This document shows, in pieces, positions 18,471 to 35,437 of a stretch of DNA of 38,973 nt. Where the stretch lies: positions 1-38,973 of the forward strand of contig CANRLU010000009.1 in NCBI GenBank assembly GCA_947631535.1, read 5' to 3'. Numbering within the stretch: position 1 is the stretch's first letter; the number at the start of each line of letters is the position of its first letter. This DNA is from an uncultured Clostridia bacterium. Its GTDB lineage: Bacteria > Bacillota > Clostridia > Oscillospirales > Ruminococcaceae. The position numbers were made by a program, and so were the translations under genes. Below the pieces are notes generated by a model. It had not been told where the DNA came from. It saw only the letters and a list, made by a program, of their open reading frames with translations, and did no database searches.

Positions 18471-20780
18471 ATGAGAAGAATATTAGCTGTAATATTGTCT
18501 CTGGCGCTGATGCTGTCAATTTGTGCCGGCGGCGGGATAATGCTGCAGGCTGATGATGTTGATACTGCTTCTATGCAGCTCGCGTTTGAATGGACGGCAC
18601 CGCAAAAGGACAGCGTCGCTGCCGGCTGGACATGGACCGGCAGCTTTCTTGACGAGACGCAGAATCGGGAATTCTTAAGCGCTATGGGTTTACCAAATGC
18701 TTATCTCGAGATAGAGGGCAACAGCACCTGCACCGAATACGATGCAACCGTTCAGTTCTTTATCAACGGTGGCAGCGCCTGTCAGATAAGCGGGAGCTAT
18801 CGCGGAGAATTCAAGTGCGGCGTGGCAGTTTCTCAGGCGCTCCAAGATGCGCAGAAAGAGCTTCCCGTCACCGAAGTTGTATTCCAGTTTATGATTTGGG
18901 AGCACGAGAAGAACCACCTTGAAGACGGTGAGGAAGTTGCGGACAAGAACTTCTATCTTAACGGGTTGAGAATTTATATCCCGAAGGACACGGTCGCTTT
19001 TGAGTGGACGTCCTCCGAAAAGAACACCGTTGAAGCAGGCTGGACAGGTACGAATTTCCTCAACGAAAGGCGTCAGGACTTTTTGGTCGCCCTGAGTCTC
19101 CCCGATGCATACCTCGAAATAGAGGGCAACAGCACCTGCAGCGAATATGCTTCGTCGGTGCAGTTCTTCCTCAATGAGAATTACGATGCCGGAGCTTATC
19201 AGATAAGCGGGGAATACCGCGGAGAATTCAAATGCGGTACGCCTATATCCGCGGCGCTTGCTGCAAAAGGTGAGCAGCTCCCCATAACAGAAATTACATT
19301 CCAGTTTATGATTTGGGAGCACGAGAAAAAACACTTAGAAAACGGGGCTGAAGTTCCGGACGGAAAGTTCTATATTAACGCTCTGAGAGTTTATGCCCCG
19401 AGCAGTTCCAAGCCCGAGCCCTCTCCCTCCACCGAAGTCGAGCTCAACGTTTACTGGTATCCCGCACAGCACGACAACACCTCTACCTGGGATAACACCT
19501 ATTACGAAGGCTTCACCGGCGACGAATACTACGACGTCTTCGGCAAGGAGGCCGAGATAGTAAAGGACGTTTCGACAAAGTGGGATATCGCTAATGACAA
19601 CTGGCAGTATATCTGGCTCGGAATCGAAGACAAGCAGCACGATCCGCGCCACTCGTTTACCGTCGAAATCTCGGATATCGTCTTCCGCACTGCCGACAGT
19701 GAATACACCTACTCCGGCGCAAAGGGCAAATATTCCGCGGAAGCTTGGGGCAGTGTCATGATACCCGTAAAGGTCGCCGACGTGTGCGGCGAGCAGAATA
19801 CTACTGATTTTCTGAGAGGCTTGGAGACTGTAACCGTCAATCTTATCTGCACCGAACATAACGGCAACAAAGCCGTCTTCGACCCCACCTTCGCCTCAAA
19901 ATCGCTTGTACTCTCAGACCAGATAGGCGTCAATTTCTTTATGAATCTCGGCGGCCTGACCGAAGCGGAAAGGCAGAGCAGCTATATGACGTTCACGGTG
20001 AGCGGGAATGAGCGTCGAGTCAATTATGACGGAAGCTTCAGAGACGAAACGAGTGGCACCTATTATGGCTTCACCTGCCCCATAAATTCCATTCAGATGG
20101 CAGACACGATCACCGCAGTCTTCCACTACGGCGACGGAAAGACGGTCAGCGAGACCTATTCCGTGAAGGATTATGTTGACTATATCAGCGGACAGTCCGG
20201 CTTCTCCGAAGAAACGGTTGCTTTGGTAAACGCCCTTGCCGACTTGGGCCATTATGTGCAGCCGGTACTTGCAGAGACAAACGGCTGGAACCTCGGTTCT
20301 GACCACGCTATAATGGAAAGCAAAACCGAATATAATTCCGAAACGGTCAGCGAAGTTAAAACCAAGGCGGCAGAATATAAATATGAAATTGTGCGCCCCA
20401 CAGGAGCAATAATTACCAATCTCACCTATTCGCTCGATCTTGAGACAAAAACTTCTATCAAGATCTATGTTGAGGTTGCAGAGGGCAGCGAGGTGAGCGC
20501 AACTGTGAACGGCCAGCCTGCCGCTAACTGTTCCCTGCTATCGGACGGCCGTTACTGCATCGTGATCGGCGACATTTCAGCACATAAATTGGGAGACAAG
20601 TACAATGTCACTATAACCGCCGGCAACGAAACCGCTACAATCACAAACCTGTCGGCCCTGTCCTACGTCAACACCGTACTCAGTTCCGACAACGTATCAA
20701 ACGAAGAATCTTATGCTGTAGCATCGATTTACAACTACTATGTTGCAGCTGAGAAATATATATCTGCAAAAGGAGAATAA
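18471..20780 (+). CDS. Secreted protein with duplicated ~139-aa domain
   Basis: A 769-aa exported protein of unknown function. A signal peptide (MRRILAVILSLALMLSIC) starts it. Two tandem copies of one domain follow (about 37-170 and 176-312), sharing YLEIEGNSTC, QISG.YRGEFKCG and FQFMIWEHEK. A Pro/Ser linker (about 313-325) leads to a different beta-rich domain (about 326-475). The C-terminal part begins LSDQIGVNFFMNLGGLTEAE and resembles a domain I associate with many Oscillospiraceae surface proteins. No sortase motif, SLH or catalytic signature is seen. It is the first gene of the operon. Its last codons contain the ribosome site for the small peptide gene three bases downstream, which suggests the two are made together. 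Confidence 0.8.
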   Translation: MRRILAVILSLALMLSICAGGGIMLQADDVDTASMQLAFEWTAPQKDSVAAGWTWTGSFLDETQNREFLSAMGLPNAYLEIEGNSTCTEYDATVQFFINGGSACQISGSYRGEFKCGVAVSQALQDAQKELPVTEVVFQFMIWEHEKNHLEDGEEVADKNFYLNGLRIYIPKDTVAFEWTSSEKNTVEAGWTGTNFLNERRQDFLVALSLPDAYLEIEGNSTCSEYASSVQFFLNENYDAGAYQISGEYRGEFKCGTPISAALAAKGEQLPITEITFQFMIWEHEKKHLENGAEVPDGKFYINALRVYAPSSSKPEPSPSTEVELNVYWYPAQHDNTSTWDNTYYEGFTGDEYYDVFGKEAEIVKDVSTKWDIANDNWQYIWLGIEDKQHDPRHSFTVEISDIVFRTADSEYTYSGAKGKYSAEAWGSVMIPVKVADVCGEQNTTDFLRGLETVTVNLICTEHNGNKAVFDPTFASKSLVLSDQIGVNFFMNLGGLTEAERQSSYMTFTVSGNERRVNYDGSFRDETSGTYYGFTCPINSIQMADTITAVFHYGDGKTVSETYSVKDYVDYISGQSGFSEETVALVNALADLGHYVQPVLAETNGWNLGSDHAIMESKTEYNSETVSEVKTKAAEYKYEIVRPTGAIITNLTYSLDLETKTSIKIYVEVAEGSEVSATVNGQPAANCSLLSDGRYCIVIGDISAHKLGDKYNVTITAGNETATITNLSALSYVNTVLSSDNVSNEESYAVASIYNYYVAAEKYISAKGE

Positions 20781-20783
20781 ATT

Positions 20784-20918
20784 ATGGAAAAATATGAAGC
20801 TCTTGAAATGGAAGTCATAGTTTTTGAGACCGAAGACGTTATTACGACAAGCTCAAATAATACAAATATGCCTGAACAACCGTTCGGTAAATACGGTTTT
20901 GGCGATACGGAATTTTAA
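20784..20918 (+). CDS. 44-aa peptide, candidate RiPP-type precursor
   Basis: A short, acidic peptide. The N-terminal part (1-24: MEKYEALEMEVIVFETEDV, then ITTSS) is amphipathic and strongly acidic, like a leader that an RRE/PqqD domain could bind. The C-terminal part (25-44: NNTNMPEQPFGKYGFGDTEF) is Gly/Asn/aromatic-rich, like a core. It has no Cys, so thioether or disulfide chemistry is excluded; Ser23, Ser24, several Thr, two Tyr and two Lys residues could be modified. AAAGGAGA lies at ideal distance, inside the preceding gene. Genes for a PqqD-like protein, a peptidase, a kinase-like protein and a nucleotidyltransferase follow in the same direction. From memory, similar short acidic peptides (…MEV..FE.EDVI.TS) occur in other gut Clostridia; this was not checked. 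Confidence 0.7.
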   Translation: MEKYEALEMEVIVFETEDVITTSSNNTNMPEQPFGKYGFGDTEF

Positions 20919-20962
20919 CCGAAGCAGGAATCAAGAACGGGCGAGCATTTGGGGGAACACCG

Positions 20963-21547
20963 ATGAGACATATCTATATAGTGATACCGGCAGTGTGTCT
21001 GGCACTTGTCGTGTTGACCTCGTGCTCTAAGGTCGGCAGGAACGAGGGCGAGGTATCCGCTTCCGTCACGGTCGCGGAGACCGCCGCCTATACAGTGCCT
21101 TCGGAAAGCGTGACAGAGCCCGAGAGCGAGACCGAAGCTTCAACTTTTGAAACAACGGAAGCTCCCGCTGCCACCACGACGGAAAGCTCTGCCACTCAGC
21201 CGGTCACGACTACGCCTTTGCCGACGACGGCCGCTGAAACATCGCGTTCAACCGCTGCAACGCAGCGCACCACGGCTCCGACCGCCGCAGCTTCTCGGCC
21301 ATCTACGGTAAGCTCGGAAGAAACCGAGATCTTAAACGATGAGACGGAGATAGTGTACGACGAGGAGTCGGAGATCCTGAACGATGAGGAATATATTTAC
21401 CCTCCCGCAGAATCGTATCAGGACGGTTGGCAGCCGTTCTTCCCGCCCGTTCCTCCGACAACGGGACAGCAGACCGAATCCGCTCCGAGCAAAAGCGGCA
21501 GTGTCACGAATAAAGACGGCGACATTCTGCTTCCGGAGGTTCCCTGA
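20963..21547 (+). CDS. Thr/Ser-rich lipoprotein
   Basis: A 194-aa lipoprotein. The signal peptide ends in the lipobox VLTSC (Cys21). Residues about 30-120 are a low-complexity Thr/Ser/Ala/Pro/Glu stalk, presumably extended and possibly glycosylated. Residues about 121-145 carry an acidic direct repeat (ETEILNDE, EESEILNDE). The tail is Pro-rich (FFPPVPP). GGGGGA precedes the start. It sits between the small peptide and the kinase-like gene and ends just before an internal terminator hairpin. It might be a surface partner for the peptide or for the large secreted protein, but no domain supports a specific function. Confidence 0.75.
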   Translation: MRHIYIVIPAVCLALVVLTSCSKVGRNEGEVSASVTVAETAAYTVPSESVTEPESETEASTFETTEAPAATTTESSATQPVTTTPLPTTAAETSRSTAATQRTTAPTAAASRPSTVSSEETEILNDETEIVYDEESEILNDEEYIYPPAESYQDGWQPFFPPVPPTTGQQTESAPSKSGSVTNKDGDILLPEVP

Positions 21548-21571
21548 CGGTCGGGCAAACAAAGATCAGAA

Positions 21572-21606
21572 GCAGGCGGTCGGTATTGGCCGCCTGCAGT
21601 TTTATT
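21572..21606 (+). terminator. Internal terminator/attenuator of the operon
   Basis: A perfect 8-bp stem GCAGGCGG/CCGCCTGC (21572-21579 with 21590-21597) with a 10-base loop, followed by AGTTTTATTT. It lies between the lipoprotein and the kinase-like gene, whose ribosome site follows directly. Partial termination would give more transcript for the secreted protein, peptide and lipoprotein than for the enzymes. Confidence 0.65.
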
Positions 21607-21620
21607 TCAGGAGACGGAAA

Positions 21621-22355
21621 ATGACGGATACATACAGACTTGCGGAACTTAATATCACGGTGTCTTCGCTTTATGACGAAGTTCATCGGCTTTGCAGGGA
21701 CTATCTTTCACCCGAGCCAAAGGCAGATTTCAAAGTAGTTACAACTCAGACAGATATTGACTTTGAACGTGAAAAGTCAGCGCGAGAGGACGAAGCCGAG
21801 GGCAGACCGGTGCAGAAGTTTACCGACGGTTATCTTGAGACGCTGGCTGTCTACCGCAAGATTGCGGAGAAGCTCCCGAAGTATGACGCTTTTCTGTTTC
21901 ACGGCTCCTGCATCGCGGTGAACGGCGAGGGATATATCTTCACGGCAAAAAGCGGCACCGGAAAAAGCACGCATACGCGGCTGTGGAGAGAACTGCTCGG
22001 GAATCGCGCTGTAATGGTCAACGACGACAAGCCGCTTATACGCGTGAGCGAAGCCGGAGCCACCGTTTACGGAACTCCTTGGGACGGAAAACACAGGCTC
22101 AGCAGCAACATCTCCGCCCCGCTTAAAGCACTTTGCATTTTACAAAGAGCGCCGGACAATTCAATATACCAAATCACCGCCGCCGAAGCGTATCCTATGC
22201 TTTTGCAGCAGGTCTACCGACCCTATGACGGCGAAGCGATGAAAAAGACGCTTGATCTGATCGACAGACTGGCTTCTTCCGTAAAACTGTGGCGGTTAAA
22301 CTGTAATACTGATATTCGGGCGGCAAAGATCGCCTATGACGCTATGAAAGGATGA
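21621..22355 (+). CDS. HPr-kinase-like P-loop protein (HprK C-terminal domain type)
   Basis: A 244-aa protein with a P-loop kinase fold related to HPr serine kinase and PEP carboxykinase. It has the phosphate-binding loop AKSGTGKSTHTRLW (109-122; Lys115/Ser116), followed by MVNDDKPLIR (132-141) and GTPWDGKHRLSSN (151-163). It lacks the N-terminal sensor domain of true HprK. Relatives in lasso-peptide clusters such as paeninodin phosphorylate the precursor on Ser, so a peptide-kinase role fits this context, but is inferred. The open frame extends 79 codons upstream; the ATG at 21621 is chosen because AGGAG lies 7 bases before it and homology starts there. Confidence 0.85.
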   Translation: MTDTYRLAELNITVSSLYDEVHRLCRDYLSPEPKADFKVVTTQTDIDFEREKSAREDEAEGRPVQKFTDGYLETLAVYRKIAEKLPKYDAFLFHGSCIAVNGEGYIFTAKSGTGKSTHTRLWRELLGNRAVMVNDDKPLIRVSEAGATVYGTPWDGKHRLSSNISAPLKALCILQRAPDNSIYQITAAEAYPMLLQQVYRPYDGEAMKKTLDLIDRLASSVKLWRLNCNTDIRAAKIAYDAMKG

Positions 22356-22362
22356 GTAAATT

Positions 22363-22623
22363 TTGAAACTGAACAGAAACTTTTTGCTGCACACCGTAAA
22401 CTCCGAAACCGTCCTTGTCCCGACGGGCGAGGCGGGATTCTCCGGAGTGGTCAGAGGCAATAAGACTTTGGGTGCAATACTGGAACTCCTCAAAACCGAT
22501 ATTACAGAGAGGGAGATCGTTGCGGCATTGCAGGCAAGGTTCGATGCGCCGCAGGGAGCCGTCGAAAAAGACGTGTCAAAGGCGCTTGCGGAGCTGAAAA
22601 AGATAGGAGCTATTGATGATTAA
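22363..22623 (+). CDS. PqqD family protein (RiPP recognition element)
   Basis: An 86-aa winged-helix PqqD/RRE-like protein that typically binds the leader of a ribosomal peptide and presents it to modifying enzymes. Visible features are an N-terminal strand pair (LHTVNSETVLVPTGE), NKTLGAILELLK, the helix DITEREIVAALQARF, and VEKDVSKALAELKKIGAI. The start is TTG at 22363; AAAGGATGAG lies about nine bases upstream and no better ATG exists in frame. It starts seven bases after the kinase-like gene and overlaps the peptidase gene, so the proteins are likely made together. Confidence 0.88.
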   Translation: MKLNRNFLLHTVNSETVLVPTGEAGFSGVVRGNKTLGAILELLKTDITEREIVAALQARFDAPQGAVEKDVSKALAELKKIGAIDD

Positions 22624-23035
22624 CAGCTCTTTTGAAGAGATGATTGAAAAAGAGGGACGGCTCATTTATTCGAGCGTCGGCGACAGTATGCTTCCCTTGA
22701 TTCGCGAGGGAAGAGATATTGTCATAATCGGGCGCTGCAGCGGAAGGCTGAAAAAGTATGACGTTCCGCTTTATAGGCGGGACAGCGGGCAGTATGTGCT
22801 TCACAGAATACTCGAAGTAAGGGAAAACGACTATGTTATCTGCGGCGACAACCGATGGTCAAAGGAGACCGGAATCACCGACAGGCATATAATAGGCGTT
22901 CTGACGGCAATAGTCAGAGACGGCAAAGAGATTTCGGTGAACAGTTGGCGCTGCCGGCTGTACGCGCATATATGGTGCGATCTTTTCCCGCTGCGGGCGG
23001 TCATTCTTAAGGCGATACGCATTATAAAGGGGTGA
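22616..23035 (+). CDS. S24/S26 family peptidase (SipW-like)
   Basis: A 139-aa serine protease-like protein of the signal peptidase/LexA superfamily. It has SSVGDSMLPLIREGRDIV (19-36), with Ser24 in the SM-x-P motif as predicted nucleophile. VLHRI has His63 where SipW/ER-type enzymes have a catalytic His, and VICGDNRW (74-81) follows. Except for a short hydrophobic stretch near 118-135 there is no clear membrane anchor, so it probably acts in the cytoplasm or at the membrane face, perhaps removing a leader. The ATG at 22616 has AGGAG six bases upstream; a TTG one codon earlier is less likely. It overlaps the PqqD-like gene by 8 bases. Confidence 0.85.
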   Translation: MINSSFEEMIEKEGRLIYSSVGDSMLPLIREGRDIVIIGRCSGRLKKYDVPLYRRDSGQYVLHRILEVRENDYVICGDNRWSKETGITDRHIIGVLTAIVRDGKEISVNSWRCRLYAHIWCDLFPLRAVILKAIRIIKG

Positions 23036-23041
23036 ACGGAT

Positions 23042-24166
23042 ATGTCTTACAAAGAATACGGCCCGTTAATCTCGGACTTGATTTACCTTGTAATATGCGC
23101 AACAGAGGAAAAAACTCCCGACGCAGAGAGAGTCGGCAGAATTGATCTCTCGGCGCTGTATACGCTCTCGGAGCGTAATCTTCTGACGGCGATAGTCGCT
23201 ATGGCTCTGGAAAGCGCAGGAATCAAGGACGCTGCGTTTACCCAAGCAAAGGGCAAAGCCGTGCGCAAAGCGGTGATGTTTGATATTGAGCGCGCCGAGA
23301 TCACTGCCGAGCTTGAGAAGTCCGGCATATGGTATATGCCGATAAAGGGCTCTGTTCTGAAAGATATTTATCCGAAGCTCGGAATGAGGCAGATGGCGGA
23401 CAACGACATTTTGTACGACGGGTCAAAGACGCAGGAGCTCCGCGAAATAATGGAAAAGCGCGGCTATTCCGTGGGCGACGGCTTCGGAAAAGGAGTTCAC
23501 GATCAATATTTCAAAGAACCTGTGCTGAACTTTGAAATGCACAGAATGTTGTTTGCGCCGTCGGTCGGGCAAAAAATTTACGAATATTATTCCGACCCGA
23601 CGTCTTTGATGATAAGGGATACCGACAGCAACTGCGGGCGGCATTTTTCGGCGGAAGATTTCTATGTATATATGATAGCGCACGAATATAAGCACTATTC
23701 CGCAGGAGGCACAGGGCTGAGGTCGCTTTTGGATACATATTTATATCTGAAAAAGGAAAAACCGGATATGAACCGCGTCTCAGAAGAACTCGAAAAGCTC
23801 GGAATCGGTGCATTTGAAGCTAAGAACCGCTCGCTGTCGCTTCATCTGTTCGGCGGGGAGACCCTGACGGAGCAAGACTGTGAAATGCTTAGGTATATTC
23901 TTAGCTCCGGCACCTACGGAACTACCTCGAACCGCATTGCAAATCAGGTGAACGAGCTGGGAGGAGGCAGGCTCGGGAAGGTAAAATATCTTTGCAGCCG
24001 AATTTTCCTGCCAATGGACGATGTAAAGACCGCCTATCCGTTCTTTTATAAGCATAAGATTCTTATGCCTTTTCTTGTAATATTCCGCTTGGGCAAAGCG
24101 CTGACCGTTAGGCGGGCGGAAGTCAGAGCGGAATTGGAGATTCTTGCGAAGAGGGAAAAGAAGTGA
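23042..24166 (+). CDS. Nucleotidyltransferase family protein (NTP_transf_5 type)
   Basis: A 374-aa protein with a nucleotidyltransferase fold. The core motif MPIKGSVLKDIYP (99-111) is followed by RQMADNDILYD (116-126), where Asp120 and Asp122 are the expected metal ligands. The helical C-terminal part (AEDFYVYMIAHEYKHYSAGG) is typical of the uncharacterised family found beside lasso-peptide and other RiPP genes. It starts six bases after the peptidase gene, with AAAGGGGTGA. Predicted role: transfer of a nucleotide (or sugar from a nucleotide) to the peptide or another partner; the substrate is not known. It is the last gene before a new promoter. Confidence 0.82.
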   Translation: MSYKEYGPLISDLIYLVICATEEKTPDAERVGRIDLSALYTLSERNLLTAIVAMALESAGIKDAAFTQAKGKAVRKAVMFDIERAEITAELEKSGIWYMPIKGSVLKDIYPKLGMRQMADNDILYDGSKTQELREIMEKRGYSVGDGFGKGVHDQYFKEPVLNFEMHRMLFAPSVGQKIYEYYSDPTSLMIRDTDSNCGRHFSAEDFYVYMIAHEYKHYSAGGTGLRSLLDTYLYLKKEKPDMNRVSEELEKLGIGAFEAKNRSLSLHLFGGETLTEQDCEMLRYILSSGTYGTTSNRIANQVNELGGGRLGKVKYLCSRIFLPMDDVKTAYPFFYKHKILMPFLVIFRLGKALTVRRAEVRAELEILAKREKK

Positions 24167-28459: not shown

Positions 28460-31180
28460 ATGCAATACATCGACATTTTTCTTGCGTCGTCCATCGACGA
28501 TCTTCACAATGAGCGAATGGAACTCGGCAACTACATCCGTATCCTGAATGACATGTATCAGAGCCGCGGGATATATTTCCGTCTGCATATGTGCGAAGAC
28601 ATCTCCGACGAGCTTTCAACAAAGCGCTCACAGGAGATTTACAACGACGTAATCCGGCAGTGCGATTATTTCTACATTATGTGCTGGCATAAAGTGGGGA
28701 AGTACACCTTAGAAGAGTTCGACGTCGCGCTTGAGCAGTTCCGTGATACCGGCAAAGCGCCGAAGATAACTACTTTCTTTAAGCAGACAGATGAACCCGC
28801 AGAGGCCGTTCGGAAGTTTATGGAGCGACTTGACGGCGAGCTCCAGCATTACTACACGGTCTTCGACAGCATAGACTCCGTCAAGCTGAAAATATTGCTT
28901 GAAATGGCCCAGCGTCCGGAGCTTCAGATGCAGGTGACCTGCCAAGACGCAAAGCTCACGCTAAACGGTCAGGAAGTCAAGGACATACATATGGACAGGC
29001 TCCCGTTTTATGCCAATCACGACAAAATAAACGAGCTTCGTGAGCGTCTCGAGCAGCTGAGCAAGGATTTTATCGATGTAAAGCTTGAAATAGCCGCCGA
29101 CCCGCAGAACGACGAGCTGTTTTCAAAGCTGTACAAGCTCAGCGGAGAGAAAAACAAGGCCGAGGAAGAACTTCACAAGCTTGAAATGGACCTGATGAAG
29201 CTTGCCTCTCGGGTGGTCGAGCTGTCCACAAGCGGAGAATATCTGACTCAGCGCGCAAAGACGGCTATGCAGCTGTTCGAGCAGGGCAGGGTCAGGGAGG
29301 CACTTGTCATTCTCGATGATGAAGAGCGCCGCCGCGACGCGCAGCGCACCGCCGAGAAGGCGACCGAGATCAAGAAAGAGTATCGGGCATACGTCAAAGA
29401 ATGTCAGCTTAAGATCGACGGGTTGACCTCGGAGGGCGTGACGGCGGAATCCGCAGAACAGATCGTTGCGCTTTATGAAGAGATCGAAGGCTACGTCCGC
29501 GACGGCGGGCTGGACAGGGCGTGCCTTATTGCCTATATGGATTTTCTTGTTAGTCAGCGCGATTATCAGAAAGCATTAAAAAAGGGCGAGCAGCTGTATC
29601 ATTACTTTAAAAGTACCGATGTTGATGATTACACTTGGGCAACATTCTGCAACGGTTTTGCCATCTTGAAAAGAAATATCAACAGCTATGGCGAGGCGGA
29701 AGATCTGTATAAAGAGGCGTTGGAGATTTATCGCAGATTGGCGGAAAATGATCCTCGGTCGTATGAACCCGATGTTGCGAATGCCTGCAATAATCTTGCC
29801 ACATTATATTATGCTGTAAATCATTATAAAGAAGCTGAAATATTATACAATGAAGCCTTCGGGATCTACCGCAAATTTTCAACATATTTTCCTTTGGAAT
29901 TTGAACCTGCTGTGGCGATGATATGCAAAAATCTTGCCTCATTATATGATGATACGAATTACCGCGAAGAAGCAGAAAAGCTGTACAACGAATCACTGAA
30001 CATATATCGCAGATTGGCAAAAGATGATCCTCAGGCTTATGACCCCTCTTTGGCGAGTATATACTTTGACCTTGCCATGTTATATGAAAAAGAAAAACGT
30101 CTCGACATGGCCGAAAAGCTGTTTAACGAGGCTTTGGATATCCGTCTGAGATTGGCAAAATATAACCCTCAGGCATATGAGCCTGATGTGGCGAAAACAT
30201 GCTATCATCTTGCCTCTTTATATTCCGAAGCTCATCGTTATGAGGATTCCGAAAGATTTTTTAAGCCTGCATTGATTATTTACCGTGAATTGGTAAAAGA
30301 ATTTCCTCAATCTTATGAGCCAGATCTAGCGATCACCTGCAATAATCTTGCTCTTTTATATCAGGCCGTTAATCGCTTTGAAGAAGCCGAAAAGCTGTTT
30401 AACGAGGCTTTAGAGATACTTCGCAGATTTGCAAGATCAAATCCCTCTGCATATGAGCCGGACTTGGCAAGTATATGCCATAATGCTGCTGTATTTTATT
30501 ATAGATATGTGAATCGGCCCGACATAGCTGAAAAATTATATAATGAGGCTTTGGAGGTATATCTCAGGCTGGCAAAAGATAATTCTCTGATCTATGAACC
30601 CTCTTTGGCGTATACATGCAGTGATCTTGCTCATCTGTATTATGACAATAAACGCTTTGATGAAGCCGAACAATTATTTAATACTTCCTTAACAATTTAC
30701 CTGAGATATGAAGCGGACAATCCGCAGGTATTTAAACCCAAACTGGCAAATGACTTCAATAATCTCGCTGTGCTGTATTGCAGTACAAACCGCTGCAAAG
30801 AAGCCGAGGAGCTGTTTTTAAAAGCGCTTGAGATCCGCCGGATATTGACAAAATACAACTCTCGGGCATACGGAACCGATTTGGCAGACACCTGCAATAA
30901 TCTTGCGATACTGTACAAGACCACATATCGCGGCGACCAAGCCGAGAGAATGTTTAACGAGGGTTTGGAGATCCGCCTGAGATTGGCGAAGGAAAATCCG
31001 CCGGCATATGAGCCGAGCCTTGCGCTGACGCTGTTTAATATGGGGGTCACATATGCAAAACTTCAGATTTTAGATTTTGCAGAGAGACTGTTTGGTGAGG
31101 CTTTTGAGCTTGCCAAAAAGTACAAGGACACTAACGGCATCTGCCGCCGGATCTATGAATCTATTTCATCGGATCAGTGA
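28460..31180 (+). CDS. DUF4062/TIR-like domain plus TPR-repeat protein
   Basis: A 906-aa protein. Residues 1-115 (YIDIFLASSIDDLHNERMEL, CEDISDELS, CDYFYIMC, LEEFDVAL) form a DUF4062/TIR-like alpha-beta domain, a class often acting as signalling or NAD-processing modules in immune proteins. Residues about 185-320 are charged and predicted coiled coil. Residues about 375-890 are 11 TPR-like units of about 50 residues, with consensus YEPDLA.TCNNLA.LY and AEKLYNEALEIYRRLAK. Codon use in the TPR part is visibly more AT-rich than in flanking housekeeping genes, fitting horizontal acquisition. It has no NTPase module, so it is not a classical STAND protein. It starts 25 bases after the RyR gene with AAAGGAG. 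Confidence 0.8.
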   Translation: MQYIDIFLASSIDDLHNERMELGNYIRILNDMYQSRGIYFRLHMCEDISDELSTKRSQEIYNDVIRQCDYFYIMCWHKVGKYTLEEFDVALEQFRDTGKAPKITTFFKQTDEPAEAVRKFMERLDGELQHYYTVFDSIDSVKLKILLEMAQRPELQMQVTCQDAKLTLNGQEVKDIHMDRLPFYANHDKINELRERLEQLSKDFIDVKLEIAADPQNDELFSKLYKLSGEKNKAEEELHKLEMDLMKLASRVVELSTSGEYLTQRAKTAMQLFEQGRVREALVILDDEERRRDAQRTAEKATEIKKEYRAYVKECQLKIDGLTSEGVTAESAEQIVALYEEIEGYVRDGGLDRACLIAYMDFLVSQRDYQKALKKGEQLYHYFKSTDVDDYTWATFCNGFAILKRNINSYGEAEDLYKEALEIYRRLAENDPRSYEPDVANACNNLATLYYAVNHYKEAEILYNEAFGIYRKFSTYFPLEFEPAVAMICKNLASLYDDTNYREEAEKLYNESLNIYRRLAKDDPQAYDPSLASIYFDLAMLYEKEKRLDMAEKLFNEALDIRLRLAKYNPQAYEPDVAKTCYHLASLYSEAHRYEDSERFFKPALIIYRELVKEFPQSYEPDLAITCNNLALLYQAVNRFEEAEKLFNEALEILRRFARSNPSAYEPDLASICHNAAVFYYRYVNRPDIAEKLYNEALEVYLRLAKDNSLIYEPSLAYTCSDLAHLYYDNKRFDEAEQLFNTSLTIYLRYEADNPQVFKPKLANDFNNLAVLYCSTNRCKEAEELFLKALEIRRILTKYNSRAYGTDLADTCNNLAILYKTTYRGDQAERMFNEGLEIRLRLAKENPPAYEPSLALTLFNMGVTYAKLQILDFAERLFGEAFELAKKYKDTNGICRRIYESISSDQ

Positions 31181-31218
31181 CCGATCATATCTTAACGCAA
31201 AAATCACGGGGTGAGGCT

Positions 31219-33570
31219 ATGCCTTCAAAAGATCTGAACACGTTGCTGCTTGATTGGGACACCGAGGAAAACGCGAAGCGCGGATTATATCCCGAAGACA
31301 TTACAGTAGGCTCCGCAGCGCGTGTCTTCTGGAAATGCCATATATGCGGCGGCAAATGGAGCACCGTTATGAAAGAGCGCCGCGGGTGTCCTTATTGCTG
31401 CGGTTTTAAAGCTCTGTCGGGTTATAATGACCTCGCGACAAAATGTCCCGAGCTGCTTAAAGAATGGGATTTTGAGAAAAACACGGATATATCTCCTTCA
31501 GAAGTTACATGCGGGTCGCAGAAAAAAGTATACTGGAAATGCGGGCAGGGGCACAGCTGGCAGGCGCAGGTGAACAGCAGGATTGCCGGCAGAGGATGTC
31601 CTTTTTGCCATAACCGCAAGGTCCTGAAAGGCTTTAATGACCTTGCGACCGTAGATCCGGAGCTTGCAGCCGAGTGGGACTGCGAAAAGAACGGCGAGCT
31701 TAGGCCGGAAGACGTTCTTGCCGGAACAAAGCGGGAAGTGTGGTGGAAGTGCCGCAAATGCGGCTCGGAATGGAAAGCAAGCGTCAGCGTAAGGCACAGG
31801 GGAAGAGGCTGCCCGTTTTGCTCGCGCTCAAGAGTCGCCCCCGGGAAAAACGATCTGAAGTCTCTTTTTCCAGATGTCTCAAAAGACTGGGATTACGAAA
31901 GAAACAGCCTGCTGCCGTCGGAGGTAATGCCCTATTCGCGCAAAAAAGTCTATTGGATATGTCCCAAGGGCCACCGCTATGCCGCAGTTATTTCGGACAG
32001 GGTAAAAGGAAACGGTTGCAGCATATGTTCGAGGGAAAGAAGAGTTTCTTTCCCCGAAAAAACGGTTCTGTATTATCTTAAAAAAGCGTATGGCGGCGCG
32101 GAGGCAAATTACAGGGCGGAATGGCTCGGGCCCTATGAAATTGACATTTTTCTTCCGGAATTCAATATTGGCGTTGAGTACGACGGAATATACGGTCACT
32201 CCAAACCGTTGGGAGTTATGCGCGACATAAGAAAAAACGGGCTCTGCGCACAAAACGGAATTACTCTTATAAGGATCCGCGAATACGGCTGTCCGCCCAC
32301 CGATAAAAACTGCGTCGAATACATTATGCGTCGGGAAGATACGCTCAAAGACGCGGTGATATTTGCGATAAATGCAGTGCGCGGAGCTTCTGGCGCAGAT
32401 GTCTCCTTAGATATGCCCGATATAGACATAAGCAGGGATTCGGGGGAGATCTATTCGCTCATAGAATTTTCCGAAAAAGAAAATTCCCTTGCCGTAAAAT
32501 GTCCGGAGATTGCAAAAATGTGGCACCCGACCAAAAACGGCAGAATGACGCCGGAGCACGTTTCGGTCATGTCTTCCAAAAAGGTGTGGTGGAAGGGCAG
32601 CTGCGGGCACGAATGGGCGAGCCAGGTATCTTATGAAGCAAAAAGCGGCCTCTGTCCGTATTGCTCCGGAAAGCGCGTGCTCGAAGGCTTCAACGACCTT
32701 AAAAGCGTAAATCCTGCGTTGGCCGAAGAGTGGGACTATGAGAGAAATCTCCCCGTCACGCCGGACAAAGTGACTTTCGGAAGCGGGAAAAAGGTGTGGT
32801 GGAAATGCAAAAAAGGTCACTCCTGGAGGGCGTCGGTCGTATCGAGAAACCGCGGGAACGGCTGCCCGATATGCGCCAACCGCGTTGCTTTGGAAGGATA
32901 TAACGATATCACGAGCATACCGGAGCTTTCCGGCTCGTTTGACCGCTCAAAGAACAAAGAAAGCCCGGAAAGCATTTGCATAGGCTCCGAAAAGAAGGTG
33001 TGGTGGAGGTGCGAAGTGTGCGGGCACAGCTGGCGTGCCCGTGTTTCGGACAGAGCCCACGGCTCGCCCTGCCCCGAATGTTCAAAGAGGGAGCGCAGCA
33101 AAAACGTCGCAAAGACATATGTCGCAAGGAGCGGCTCGCTGCTTGAAAACCGTCCCGATATTGCCGCCGAGTGGGACTATTCAAAAAATACCCTGCGCCC
33201 CGAAGACGTTACCTGCGGGAGCGAAAAAAAGGTTTGGTGGATATGCCCGAATTGCGGCGAAAGCTGGTGCTCAAGCGTTGCCGTAAGAGCCGGAAAAGCA
33301 GGCAGCGGCTGTCCGGAATGTGGGAAAAAGAAGCAGTCGGCAAGCCGGCGGCAGACTATTCTCAAAAGAAGGCAGCCGCTGTCCGTCACACACCCGAAAG
33401 TCAGCGAAAAATGGGACCATATCAAAAATGCACCGCTGACGCTCGATTCCGTTACGGCAGGCTCTGGCAGGAGAGTGTGGTGGCGCTGTGAAAAATGCGG
33501 CAGCGAGTGGCAAATGTGTGTTTGCGATATGTGCAAGAGAAAATTTGCCTGCCTTAATTGCAAAGAGTGA
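31219..33570 (+). CDS. Zinc-ribbon-repeat protein with embedded PD-(D/E)XK-like nuclease
   Basis: A 783-aa protein with nine copies of a ~65-residue treble-clef/zinc-ribbon unit (DUF4379 type: W..C..GH.W, CP.C). Four come before and five after a nuclease-like domain at about 277-375. That domain shows FPEKT (Glu280), EIDIFLPE (Asp309), VEYDG (Glu320/Asp322), a following His327, and IRKNG with RIRE, the pattern of Vsr-like/PD-(D/E)XK endonucleases. The ribbons probably grip DNA or RNA. An upstream GTG is in frame, but the ATG at 31219, after GGGGTGAGG, is preferred. It follows the TPR gene by 38 bases and is the last gene of the operon. Unit five has a shifted first Cys (WKGSCGHEW). Confidence 0.85.
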   Translation: MPSKDLNTLLLDWDTEENAKRGLYPEDITVGSAARVFWKCHICGGKWSTVMKERRGCPYCCGFKALSGYNDLATKCPELLKEWDFEKNTDISPSEVTCGSQKKVYWKCGQGHSWQAQVNSRIAGRGCPFCHNRKVLKGFNDLATVDPELAAEWDCEKNGELRPEDVLAGTKREVWWKCRKCGSEWKASVSVRHRGRGCPFCSRSRVAPGKNDLKSLFPDVSKDWDYERNSLLPSEVMPYSRKKVYWICPKGHRYAAVISDRVKGNGCSICSRERRVSFPEKTVLYYLKKAYGGAEANYRAEWLGPYEIDIFLPEFNIGVEYDGIYGHSKPLGVMRDIRKNGLCAQNGITLIRIREYGCPPTDKNCVEYIMRREDTLKDAVIFAINAVRGASGADVSLDMPDIDISRDSGEIYSLIEFSEKENSLAVKCPEIAKMWHPTKNGRMTPEHVSVMSSKKVWWKGSCGHEWASQVSYEAKSGLCPYCSGKRVLEGFNDLKSVNPALAEEWDYERNLPVTPDKVTFGSGKKVWWKCKKGHSWRASVVSRNRGNGCPICANRVALEGYNDITSIPELSGSFDRSKNKESPESICIGSEKKVWWRCEVCGHSWRARVSDRAHGSPCPECSKRERSKNVAKTYVARSGSLLENRPDIAAEWDYSKNTLRPEDVTCGSEKKVWWICPNCGESWCSSVAVRAGKAGSGCPECGKKKQSASRRQTILKRRQPLSVTHPKVSEKWDHIKNAPLTLDSVTAGSGRRVWWRCEKCGSEWQMCVCDMCKRKFACLNCKE

Positions 33571-33753: not shown

Positions 33754-34533
33754 ATGCCGATCTATAAATATGAGACCCATATGCACACGTCGCAGGGCTC
33801 GGACTGCTCCTCGACCTCGGGCGCAAAGATGGTCGAAAGGCTGAGTGAACTCGGCTATACCGGCTGCTTCATTACCGACCACTTCTTCGGAGGGAACACC
33901 GCAGTAAACAGAGACCTCGCAAAGCTCCCTTGGGAGGCCCGCGTCAGGCTTTTCTGCCAGGGCTACGACGACGCCAAGCGGCGGGGCGACGAGCTTGGCT
34001 TTCAGGTCTTCTTCGGGCTGGAGTTCGGCTGGCGCGCCACCGAGTTTCTGACCTACGGCGTGGACATGCAGTTTCTCATCGACCACCCCGAGATCGACGA
34101 TATGCCGATAAACTACTTTGCCGACCTCGTTCACAAATGCGGGGGCTTCGTGGTCCACGCTCACCCCTTCCGCGAGGCCGACTATATAAGCACTATCCGC
34201 CTCTTCCCTCATAAGGTGGACGGAGTGGAGATATACAACTGCAACAACCGCGACGAGTTCAACGCCCGCGCAAAGTGGTACGCCGAGTCCTTCGGGCTTC
34301 CGGCTACGGGAGGTTCCGATTCACACCACCGCTGGTGCCACCCCAACGGCGGGGTATGCGTTGAAAAGAAGTTTGAAACGCCGTTTGATTATCTTGAGGC
34401 TATGAGAGCGGGCAAGCTCACCGTTTTGGAGCGCGACCACTCTACCGACTTCGACCCCGGCGCAAATCCCTGGGAATACTGCGTAAGGCCGAACGTTTCG
34501 CTTCTGCCCGAGGGCTGTGTTGATAAGGAGTAA
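33754..34533 (+). CDS. PHP domain-containing metal-dependent phosphoesterase
   Basis: A 259-aa cytoplasmic protein of the PHP superfamily (histidinol-phosphatase/polymerase phosphoesterase type). Metal-binding motifs are all present: ETHMHTSQ (His9/His11), ITDHF (Asp42/His43), FGLEF (Glu90), VHAHPFRE (His135/His137) and GGSDSHH (Asp189/His191). Its natural substrate cannot be read from sequence. It is separated from the GT2 gene by only two bases, and the GT2 ribosome site lies within its last codons, so the two are co-translated. It may remove a phosphate in the envelope pathway run by its neighbours, which is inference. Confidence 0.92.
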   Translation: MPIYKYETHMHTSQGSDCSSTSGAKMVERLSELGYTGCFITDHFFGGNTAVNRDLAKLPWEARVRLFCQGYDDAKRRGDELGFQVFFGLEFGWRATEFLTYGVDMQFLIDHPEIDDMPINYFADLVHKCGGFVVHAHPFREADYISTIRLFPHKVDGVEIYNCNNRDEFNARAKWYAESFGLPATGGSDSHHRWCHPNGGVCVEKKFETPFDYLEAMRAGKLTVLERDHSTDFDPGANPWEYCVRPNVSLLPEGCVDKE

Positions 34534-34535
34534 CG

Positions 34536-35435
34536 ATGATATCTGTTGTGATACCCTCGTTTAACGAGGAAGAAAACATCTTTGAGGCTGCGAAAGCGAT
34601 ATCCGCAGTGCTCGCCGGCTCGGAATACGAGCTTATTTTCGTTGACGACGGCTCGACCGACGGCACCTGGGAAAAAATTTCGGAAGCTTCCGCCGACCCG
34701 CATATAAGGGGACTACGGTTCTCGCGGAATTTCGGCAAGGAGTCTGCAATAAGGGCAGGGCTCGAGGCCGCCTCGGGCGACGCGGCGGTCGTTATCGACT
34801 GCGACCTTCAGCACCCGCCGCAGGTGATCCCCGAAATGATAGAAAAATGGAAGAACGGCGCAAAGGTAGTTGAGGGCAAAAAGTCGGCGCGGGGGAGCAA
34901 GGGCAGCTCCTACAGCGTTTTCGCGGCGGCTTTCAATTCCGTTATGACCCGTGCCACCGGCTTCGATATGAGCGGAGCCTCAGACTTTATGCTCCTTGAC
35001 CGCGACGCCGTAAAGGCGGTGCTTTCATACGGCGAAAACGGCAGCTTTTTCAGGGCGCTGGCGCAGTATGTGGGATTTGAGTCGGACAAGGTGTATTACG
35101 ACGTTGCCGAGCGGGAGCGCGGCAGCGGAAAGTGGACGTTTTTCAAGCTTGTAAGCTACGCCGTAAAGAACATCGCATCGTTCACGTCGGCACCTCTGCT
35201 TTTGGGACTTGCCTTGGGGACACCGGTCATCGCGGCGGCGGTAGTGCTGTTCATACTTAAGTGGTGCAAGGTGCCGCTCGGCTCGTTCAGCGCAGGAGTT
35301 ATCACGCTTATGCTCATCGGCGGGCTTATTCTTGTAACTCTCGGAGTGGCGGGATATTATCTCTCGCGGATATACGACGAGATAAAGCGCCGCCCGAAAT
35401 ATATAATCTCGGCCGACACAAAAGAAAGGAAGTAA
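34536..35435 (+). CDS. GT2 polyprenyl-phosphate glycosyltransferase (CsbB/GtrB-like)
   Basis: A 299-aa enzyme that transfers a sugar from a nucleotide-sugar to undecaprenyl phosphate at the inner face of the membrane. It has VVIPSFNEEENI (4-15), FVDDGSTDGTW (35-45; Asp37/38), VIDCDLQHPP (86-95; DxD) and RGSGKWTFFKL, then two C-terminal hydrophobic helices (about 210-240 and 250-280). This is the DPM1/GtrB/CsbB arrangement. Directly followed by a YfhO-family gene (two-base gap), as in three-component glycosylation systems; in B. subtilis CsbB and YfhO act together on lipoteichoic acid. No GtcA-like flippase is present in the window. Confidence 0.93.
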   Translation: MISVVIPSFNEEENIFEAAKAISAVLAGSEYELIFVDDGSTDGTWEKISEASADPHIRGLRFSRNFGKESAIRAGLEAASGDAAVVIDCDLQHPPQVIPEMIEKWKNGAKVVEGKKSARGSKGSSYSVFAAAFNSVMTRATGFDMSGASDFMLLDRDAVKAVLSYGENGSFFRALAQYVGFESDKVYYDVAERERGSGKWTFFKLVSYAVKNIASFTSAPLLLGLALGTPVIAAAVVLFILKWCKVPLGSFSAGVITLMLIGGLILVTLGVAGYYLSRIYDEIKRRPKYIISADTKERK

Positions 35436-35437
35436 AT

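Follow-up and report, generated by a model that had tools for sequence, protein, structure and literature searches.

The closest described system is the Linear Polyphosphorylated Peptide (LPP) pathway, published in May 2026 and encoded by lppAKBSDN in Paenibacillus alginolyticus (Popov et al., 2026; PMC13381572). It comprises a kinase, an RRE protein, the peptidase SpI, an exporter and an NTP transferase. Gene deletions and mass spectrometry showed that Ser polyphosphorylation is kinase-dependent and that leader removal is SpI-dependent; the NTP transferase made no visible difference in the expression system used there. Residues N33 and D70 of LppB touch the YxxP leader, and the Ser/His pair of LppS is S29/H68. 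The MsbA-like exporter, LppD, is in the conserved set and is not stated to be a requirement (PMC13381572).

Parts of this enzyme set occur in other contexts. Excerpts of a study of rumen bacteria describe genes for HprK, PqqD and NTP transferase proteins alongside lasso genes (PMC7533575), and paeninodin leaders carry a W motif (PMC13381572). The HPr-rel-A system (NCBIfam TIGR04352/TIGR04353) also has an HprK-related kinase and a PqqD-related protein. Here, we describe a locus from an uncultured clostridial bacterium that is probably a variant of the LPP pathway acting on a 44-aa peptide. The window, meaning the whole stretch of DNA analysed, is 38,973 nucleotides long.

Organisation of the locus

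Seven genes form a single run on the + strand (18471..24166), according to open reading frames and their translations, and all features below are on that strand. The first encodes a 769-aa secreted protein (18471..20780) with a signal peptide recognised by eye. It is followed by the 44-aa precursor peptide (20784..20918) and a lipoprotein (20963..21547) with an LTSC lipobox, also recognised by eye. Next are an HprK-like kinase (21621..22355), a stand-alone PqqD/RRE protein with a TTG start (22363..22623), a SipW/archaeal-type signal-peptidase-like leader peptidase (22616..23035) and an NTP_transf_5 nucleotidyltransferase (23042..24166). These four enzymes resemble LppK, LppB, LppS and LppN, respectively. 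Their genes are separated, in turn, by a 7 nt gap, an 8-nt overlap and a 6 nt gap. Hence, the gene content and tight packing described in the initial annotation were recovered in full.

The gap between the lipoprotein and kinase genes contains a terminator-like hairpin of 11 pairs, 8 of them G-C (21572..21597). A hairpin scan of the region found 14 such sites, against 7.2 expected from shuffles, and this hairpin ranks first among them in number of G-C pairs. Because a strong hairpin separates the first three genes from the four enzyme genes, the sequence suggests that there may be two transcription units.

None of the 27 window proteins matched Pfam families for ABC transporters, radical SAM enzymes, YcaO, LanM or asparagine-synthetase-like proteins. 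Thus, no macrolactam cyclase was found among the scanned proteins, and the same gaps had been apparent on first inspection. An Rfam search gave no match at the gathering score, PADLOC gave none for seven neighbouring proteins, and a viral-contig search with the nucleotidyltransferase as query found no relative.

The enzymes retain LPP-type residues

We compared the four enzymes with profiles and relatives. The kinase matches Hpr_kinase_C below the cut-off (E=0.001) and its alignment keeps the catalytic motifs, a P-loop (SGTGKSTH) and NDDKP. The P-loop Lys and the DDKP Asp are present in 100/100 relatives having a residue there. The RRE protein exceeds the PqqD cut-off (PF05402, E=2.2e-10). It carries both N33 and D70, found in 84/87 and 75/87 aligned relatives. 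The peptidase matches TIGR02228 below the cut-off (E=1.4e-5), again with catalytic motifs intact. Its catalytic-type Ser and His occur in 50/50 and 76/76 relatives with a residue there, counts that leave out 28 gap rows at Ser and 2 at His. The Ser-His spacing is 39, identical to that of S29/H68 in LppS, and no N-terminal membrane helix was seen by eye. The nucleotidyltransferase exceeds its cut-off (PF14907, E=2.5e-36). Conversely, window proteins fall below both HPr-rel-A cut-offs (10.8 vs 200 bits and 21.6 vs 35).

Hence, the locus has an LppK-like kinase, an RRE protein with N33/D70, a SipW/SpI-like peptidase and an NTP transferase, with no linked cyclase; likeness to LppA, LppB, LppK and LppS is a matter of published residues and motifs, as distinct from direct sequence alignment. 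The window differs from the LPP set in having no linked MsbA-like exporter. Seven exporters were found elsewhere in the genome, 25-31% identical to the linked exporter of one relative. Since the defining paper does not state the exporter as a requirement, we still file the cluster as an LPP variant.

A conserved leader precedes a hypervariable tail

The peptide consists of a leader, YEALEMEVIVFETEDVITTS, a near-invariant Ser23 and a variable tail, SNNTNMPEQPFGKYGFGDTEF. Leaders ending EDVITTS are common to 56 distinct peptides, including that of the window. In the alignment, Ser is present in 53, Tyr in 51 with Phe in 5, and Asp in 55. Across the family, the leader is conserved and the tail is hypervariable. 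Scans of 40 peptides with NCBIfam and Pfam gave 0/40 matches. A profile of six peptides detected 52/149 relatives at E<=1 and 27/149 at E<=0.01, the latter counted by hand and including the window's own genome. Because this profile matches many relatives, the 44-aa frame is, on sequence grounds, more than a chance frame. The peptide proposed at first sight as a plausible precursor is therefore conserved in homologous loci.

The LPP precursor pattern (YxxPx[hydrophobic], F-x-[T/A], Ser, variable C-terminus) is present with variation. The window peptide has Leu where YxxP has P. The clostridial leader reads Px6F..EDVITTS, whereas that of Bacilli reads Px9FETxxS, so that Ser lies 7 residues after FxT in the former and 3 in the latter. 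By analogy, cleavage may occur after FET-16; the alternative is a cut after TTS-23. A text search of the open-access literature for four leader strings, such as EDVITTS, found none. In the same literature, PMC13381572 was the only paper found to treat this enzyme set as a separate system; its main text names neither Ruminococcus nor Lachnospira and says nothing of lipoproteins, adhesins or radical SAM.

Peptides and enzymes co-occur across genomes

The initial annotation proposed a search for co-occurrence. Among 391 genomes of the class, 49 have the peptide and 342 do not. The kinase is present in 48/49 of the former and 62/342 of the latter (Fisher 1.6e-29). For nearer relatives, the RRE protein was found in 17/23 peptide genomes and 10/126 others (p 5.6e-11). 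Removing six genomes that contributed to the profile left 11/17 against 10/126 (p 3.3e-7).

Two further points concern absent partners. The lasso B2 peptidase (PF13471) gave no match at E<=0.1 in the window's own genome, which is 95% complete, and occurred in 0/49 peptide genomes from the class set. Membership of the lasso family was rejected on this basis, and a lasso system elsewhere in the same genome, as judged from B2, was not found. Conversely, the lack of an ABC transporter is true of the window and does not extend to its relatives, as 26/38 related loci carry an ABC exporter.

Of the 38 kinase loci flanked by 5 kb on each side, only 14 had a detectable peptide; therefore, precursors are elsewhere or were missed. 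Most precursors examined sit directly downstream of a gene for a large, mostly signal-bearing protein. The maximum was 19 peptides behind such genes in a single genome, in which the kinase was matched twice.

At some sister loci, such as L056, L154 and L159, a radical SAM enzyme is added and the cores contain Cys. In this they resemble radical SAM/SPASM peptides of the ranthipeptide/sactipeptide type. A core Cys was found in 8/8 peptides no more than 6 kb from a radical SAM gene and 0/34 elsewhere (p 8.5e-9), the latter count being corrected for one script-flagged peptide with its Cys in the leader. The window has no such enzyme. Its genome has one SPASM match below the cut-off, which lies on another contig in an open frame, and a second weak match that is broken by a stop and also lies outside the window's contig.

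The secreted protein and lipoprotein recur with the peptide

The secreted protein contains two repeat modules of ~138 aa (18580-18984 and 18994-19401; D1-D4 at ~410 nt spacing) and matched nothing in Pfam or NCBIfam at E<=1. Its conserved C-terminal domain of ~275 aa (19881..20777) has two Ig-like sandwiches, with helices after each. A fold search returned common Ig-like arrangements only, with no functional relative. Docking of the peptide on this domain was tried with AlphaFold2, using a domain-peptide read-through from L156. The peptide was disordered (pLDDT about 30) in this weak, single-chain test, which thus lent docking no support.

The lipoprotein has a Ser/Thr/Glu-rich stalk and ends DILLPEVP; those of relatives have LPxxP-type tails. 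A lipoprotein often follows the peptide, and at part of the loci its tail resembles the peptide core. For 15 hand-picked loci, the tail/core comparison gave 343, against maxima of 257 for shuffled and 315 for locus-permuted pairs (0/2000 each); L130 and L085 are without a match and the L089 tail was placed by hand behind a signal sequence. A rule-based set of 14 pairs gave 293 (shuffled maximum 233, permuted maximum 291; 0/1000 each). This set overlaps the first, omits the window and has mis-parsed rows, for example L067 and L089. With 11 further pairs from other loci, including mis-parsed rows L198, L220 and L240, the observed value was reached by 4/1000 shuffles and 134/1000 permutations; for a subset of 9, the figures were 4 and 60. 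Thus, the match is locus-specific in the first loci, and the second set does not confirm it. The secreted protein had been suggested as a carrier or target. We read it as a partner that recurs with the peptide, in preference to a carrier. Both it and the lipoprotein are presumably extracellular partners.

Discussion

The locus does not represent a new class of RiPP; what is new is the clostridial variant. The suggestion of a system without precedent thus fell to the match with the LPP enzymes, and that of a RiPP-type cluster built on a kinase, NTP transferase and protease, with no neighbouring cyclase, held. Gene content, conserved residues, co-occurrence and precursor-like conservation were all observed. 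The chemical steps would follow by analogy with LPP experiments in another species. N33 and D70 of the RRE protein would mediate its binding to the Y-x-x-(P/L)-E-M stretch of the leader, and the kinase would add one or more phosphates to Ser23. The SipW-like Ser/His peptidase would cleave off the leader, and the nucleotidyltransferase would probably cap the phosphate, for instance with a sugar. Export may use an MsbA-type ABC protein, linked in many relatives and unlinked here. The proposed extracellular partners of the peptide, encoded with it, would be the secreted Ig-domain protein and the lipoprotein, consistent with a surface role.

Could the cluster be a categorically new class, independent of lasso and LPP systems? 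The missing cyclase, the peptides' lack of database matches and a leader spacing unlike the published LPP consensus favour this, yet LPP is matched by the gene set, by the residues with which the RRE protein contacts the leader, and by the Ser, and we consider it quite improbable. A decayed paeninodin-like cluster, in which B2 and the cyclase were lost and the peptide is a former lasso precursor, is more improbable still. It would account for the kinase, PqqD/RRE and NTP transferase genes, which also accompany lasso genes in the excerpts from rumen bacteria (PMC7533575), and for the YxxP-type leader. However, the conserved motifs are intact, B2 is absent from all 49 peptide genomes, the peptidase is SipW-like instead, and the leader has Y, not the paeninodin W (PMC13381572).

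Alternatively, the enzymes might modify the secreted protein or lipoprotein, leaving the 44-aa frame as a short conserved accessory peptide. Both proteins recur across loci, and in L178-L184 and L198 the domain gene is followed by a lipoprotein gene with no peptide between. Conversely, both proteins bear export signals whereas the enzymes look cytoplasmic, the RRE motif is on the peptide, and the core Cys tracks the radical SAM gene. We regard this alternative as unlikely. At the L178 locus, a peptide (L048) lies elsewhere in the cluster.

The LPP variant differs from its counterpart in Bacilli in host, in precursors often dispersed behind large-protein genes, in a core-like lipoprotein tail at part of the loci, and in the radical SAM subset; lasso B2 is in none of its peptide genomes. 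A more speculative extension, which we hold to be doubtful, is that clostridial LPPs are surface docking tags for adjacent secreted proteins, linked enzymatically to the envelope. The NTP transferase would attach the Ser-phosphorylated peptide, through its phosphate, to a sugar or lipid of the envelope. An MsbA-type exporter would flip the peptide out, and the secreted protein would dock on the tail shown at the surface. The lipoprotein, with its LPxxP free end, would be a lipid-anchored version of the tag, and one enzyme set could serve many dispersed surface proteins, as the genome with 19 peptide genes might suggest.

In these clostridia, most of the precursors examined follow genes of large proteins, the majority of which bear export signals, and they often precede a lipoprotein whose tail is similar; this arrangement suggests that the peptides act at the cell surface. 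Such placement is a testable clue to the biological role of LPPs, which is unknown according to the defining paper (PMC13381572). One machine acting on many dispersed precursors, together with a radical SAM branch whose core composition follows the enzyme, would broaden both the chemistry and the logic known for this RiPP family among rumen and gut bacteria.

Gene organisation in the window

The seven forward-strand genes of the initial annotation are present and real, and their positions were confirmed. They encode a secreted protein (18471-20780), a 44-aa peptide (20784-20918), a lipoprotein (20963-21547), an HprK-like kinase (21621-22355), a PqqD/RRE protein (22363-22623), a SipW-like peptidase (22616-23035) and an NTP_transf_5 nucleotidyltransferase (23042-24166). 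Little or no space separates the four enzyme genes. In family searches, their PqqD and NTP_transf_5 matches were above cut-off; the HprK and signal-peptidase matches were weak and below cut-off but consistent. Kinase and peptidase motifs are visible in alignments with 12 and 11 relatives, respectively. The lipoprotein and kinase genes are divided by a strong hairpin (21572-21597) with T-rich sequence after it. Hence, the genes for the substrate side (secreted protein, peptide, lipoprotein) may be expressed separately from the enzyme genes or at a different level. The reported absence of an ABC transporter and known RiPP core enzyme was borne out by a Pfam scan of 27 window proteins.

Further downstream are a 906-aa tetratricopeptide-repeat protein (28460-31180) and, directly after it, a protein in which nine DUF4379 treble-clef stretches are recognised (31177-33570); PADLOC matched neither. 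Consecutive genes at 33754-38326 encode a PHP-domain protein, a family 2 glycosyltransferase and a YfhO membrane protein.

The peptide is conserved and accompanies the enzymes

A profile built from six peptides was run against 149 relatives; 52 match it at E<=1, and 27 when the threshold is tightened to E<=0.01. From fetched loci we gathered 56 distinct peptides, the window peptide included (62 matches at E<1e-3, 59 loci). They share a leader, approximately M-K-E-x-Y-x-x-P-E-M-E-V-x-x-F-x-x-E-D-V-I-T-T-S, and diverge after it; thus, the 44-aa frame is conserved in homologous loci. Tyr occurs in 51/56 and Phe in the remaining five, Asp in 55/56, Ser in 53/56 and Pro in only 33/56. None of 40 peptides scanned matched NCBIfam or Pfam at E<=0.01. 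Four same-genus loci (L076, L082, L083, L084) carry a highly conserved short peptide of similar general type; three have DKEYEKHEMEIINYEENEWIVTS, and L082 has a closely related version. It lies near a gene resembling gapA (by eye) and a small regulator-like gene, with no long partner directly upstream.

Co-occurrence was measured in 391 genomes of the class (peptide profile E<=0.001, kinase profile E<=1e-20). The peptide profile matched 49 genomes and the kinase profile 110; many of the kinase matches span no more than a portion of the profile and will represent other HprK-like kinases. A kinase match was found in 48/49 peptide genomes versus 62/342 others (Fisher 1.6e-29). Among nearer relatives, the peptide was present in 17/23 RRE genomes versus 10/126 (p 5.6e-11); six of the 17 had supplied the peptide profile, and leaving these out gave 11/17 versus 10/126 (p 3.3e-7). 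The peptide thus co-occurs with the kinase and with the RRE. A tie to lasso clusters was also looked for. The lasso leader peptidase B2 occurs in 7/391 genomes, all lacking peptide and kinase matches (0/49 peptide genomes). Hence, in the genomes examined, the system is no appendage of lasso clusters.

When public genomes were scanned with the kinase alignment, at least 590 stretches were confirmed as relatives. Going by their record titles, the best 80 of these come mostly from rumen or gut Clostridia, including Ruminococcus flavefaciens Y1, Kandleria vitulina and Faecalibacterium prausnitzii, while others are labelled Atopobiaceae, Coriobacteriaceae, Alistipes or Prevotellaceae. Among the 38 of these 80 with 5 kb on both sides of the kinase (42 were dropped), we counted RRE (32), SipW-like peptidase (27), ABC (26), NTP transferase (19), peptide (14), secreted C-terminal domain (13) and radical SAM (1) genes. 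One gene order that recurs runs from the secreted protein through peptide, (lipoprotein), kinase, RRE, peptidase and ABC to the NTP transferase. The ABC gene is absent from the window, and seven exporters found elsewhere in its genome assembly are just 25-31% identical to a relative's linked exporter.

Core composition was compared for 42 peptides at kinase loci. The core contains Cys in all eight peptides that lie no more than 6 kb from a radical SAM gene, which are not all independent (two come from L154, and L159 and L160 are also among those that share a locus or are similar), and in 0/34 others; the one case flagged by script, L037, has its Cys in the leader. That core Cys tracks the radical SAM gene supports the peptide as substrate. 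On contig 20 of the window's own assembly (L058, 463-1824, + strand), a radical SAM-type protein of 453 aa, whose SPASM match is below cut-off, follows an ORF ending in CARVSTGTQNYCLFGGAGR; this is possibly another peptide-modification pair.

Secreted partners and the lipoprotein

A gene of at least 300 aa lies directly upstream, on the same strand and within 200 nt, for 34/56 distinct peptides; four were at an edge and 18 had no such gene. We examined 40 more stretches from genomes picked as peptide-rich (all 19 sites of G359, all 14 of G165, 5/9 of G449, 1/4 of G403, and three kinase sites). Three of their 42 peptide matches were antisense artefacts. For 34 of the remaining 39, a gene of at least 150 aa is directly upstream (edge 2; none 3). 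A crude signal-sequence pattern was found in 28 of these 34 (absent in three, start missing in three) compared with 113/237 other genes. Although the pattern is lax, this enrichment is clear. G359 yielded 19 matches with the peptide profile and two with the kinase profile. In G165 (L226-L237), the 14 sites mostly hold two groups of closely similar longer peptides (MKNYIKPEVKINSFISEDVITTSGTSTPT...; ...SEDVITTSG..NNPLTALATKTF...), which suggests recent duplication of protein-peptide pairs.

Many secreted proteins end in a C-terminal domain of ~275 aa (window 19881-20777; 33 ORFs; 21/149 relatives, with as many as 13 in a single genome). Its structure prediction, of high confidence, shows two Ig-like units accompanied by helices. 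Of five secreted proteins scanned with Pfam, two have BspA-type leucine-rich repeats, to which one adds a PMP repeat. Below cut-off, a third matched GLUG and M26 and a fourth TPR; the fifth had no match. In some large partners (L054, L096, L103, L106, L165) a second C-terminal type, YxRxYLVYxDxxGxxxTVYG-like by eye, replaces the Ig-like domain.

Many loci have a lipoprotein-like gene after the peptide or directly after the domain gene. Its product combines a long stalk of low complexity with a short tail, e.g. ELPFVPxx, LLPEVP (window) or LPIDPxG. Near-identical strings occur in several peptide cores (L143, GELPFVPAE versus IELPFVPAF; L109, EGKQVDPFAG versus EGELLDPFE). Core/tail similarity was higher than after shuffling or locus permutation in two sets that overlap; an additional set of smaller size did not rise above permutation. 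In L089 the string is just after a signal-like sequence and a hydrophobic segment is at the opposite end, which suggests that the string is presented extracellularly at a free end. A bolder and unlikely reading takes peptide and lipoprotein for two forms of a tag on which the secreted protein docks. In the sole direct test, a single-chain fold of the L156 domain with its peptide, no docking was seen.

Relationship to the LPP pathway

The initial annotation proposed a new RiPP-like operon. Popov et al. (2026; PMC13381572) describe Linear Polyphosphorylated Peptides (LPPs), made from precursor LppA with HprK-like LppK, RRE protein LppB, SipW-like LppS, exporter LppD and NTP transferase LppN. There, a single Ser is polyphosphorylated in a kinase-dependent manner, leader removal depends on LppS with RRE assistance, LppB N33 and D70 contact a YxxP leader, and lppN deletion changed nothing visible. 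The window RRE has Asn at residue 33 and Asp at 70, kept in 84/87 and 75/87 relatives. The peptidase Ser and His are kept in 50/50 and 76/76 relatives with a residue at the aligned position; we attribute most of the gaps there (28 and 2 rows) to how the starts were chosen. Their spacing, 39 residues, is that of S29/H68 in LppS. Set against the LPPs described there, the clostridial leader has a P-to-F interval of 6 residues instead of 9, the Ser follows FxT at a distance of 7 residues instead of 3, the window peptide has Leu instead of Pro, and the window lacks a linked exporter. Despite these leader-spacing and exporter differences, the enzyme set and the conserved RRE and peptidase residues argue that the cluster is probably an LPP variant instead of a new system.

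The family matches below cut-off and the null result for the NTP transferase slightly reduce our confidence in this assignment and in the docking reading. The best supported reading, which we consider likely, is that the locus makes an LPP-type peptide that would be phosphorylated on its near-invariant Ser23, cut by the SipW-like enzyme and produced together with surface partners.
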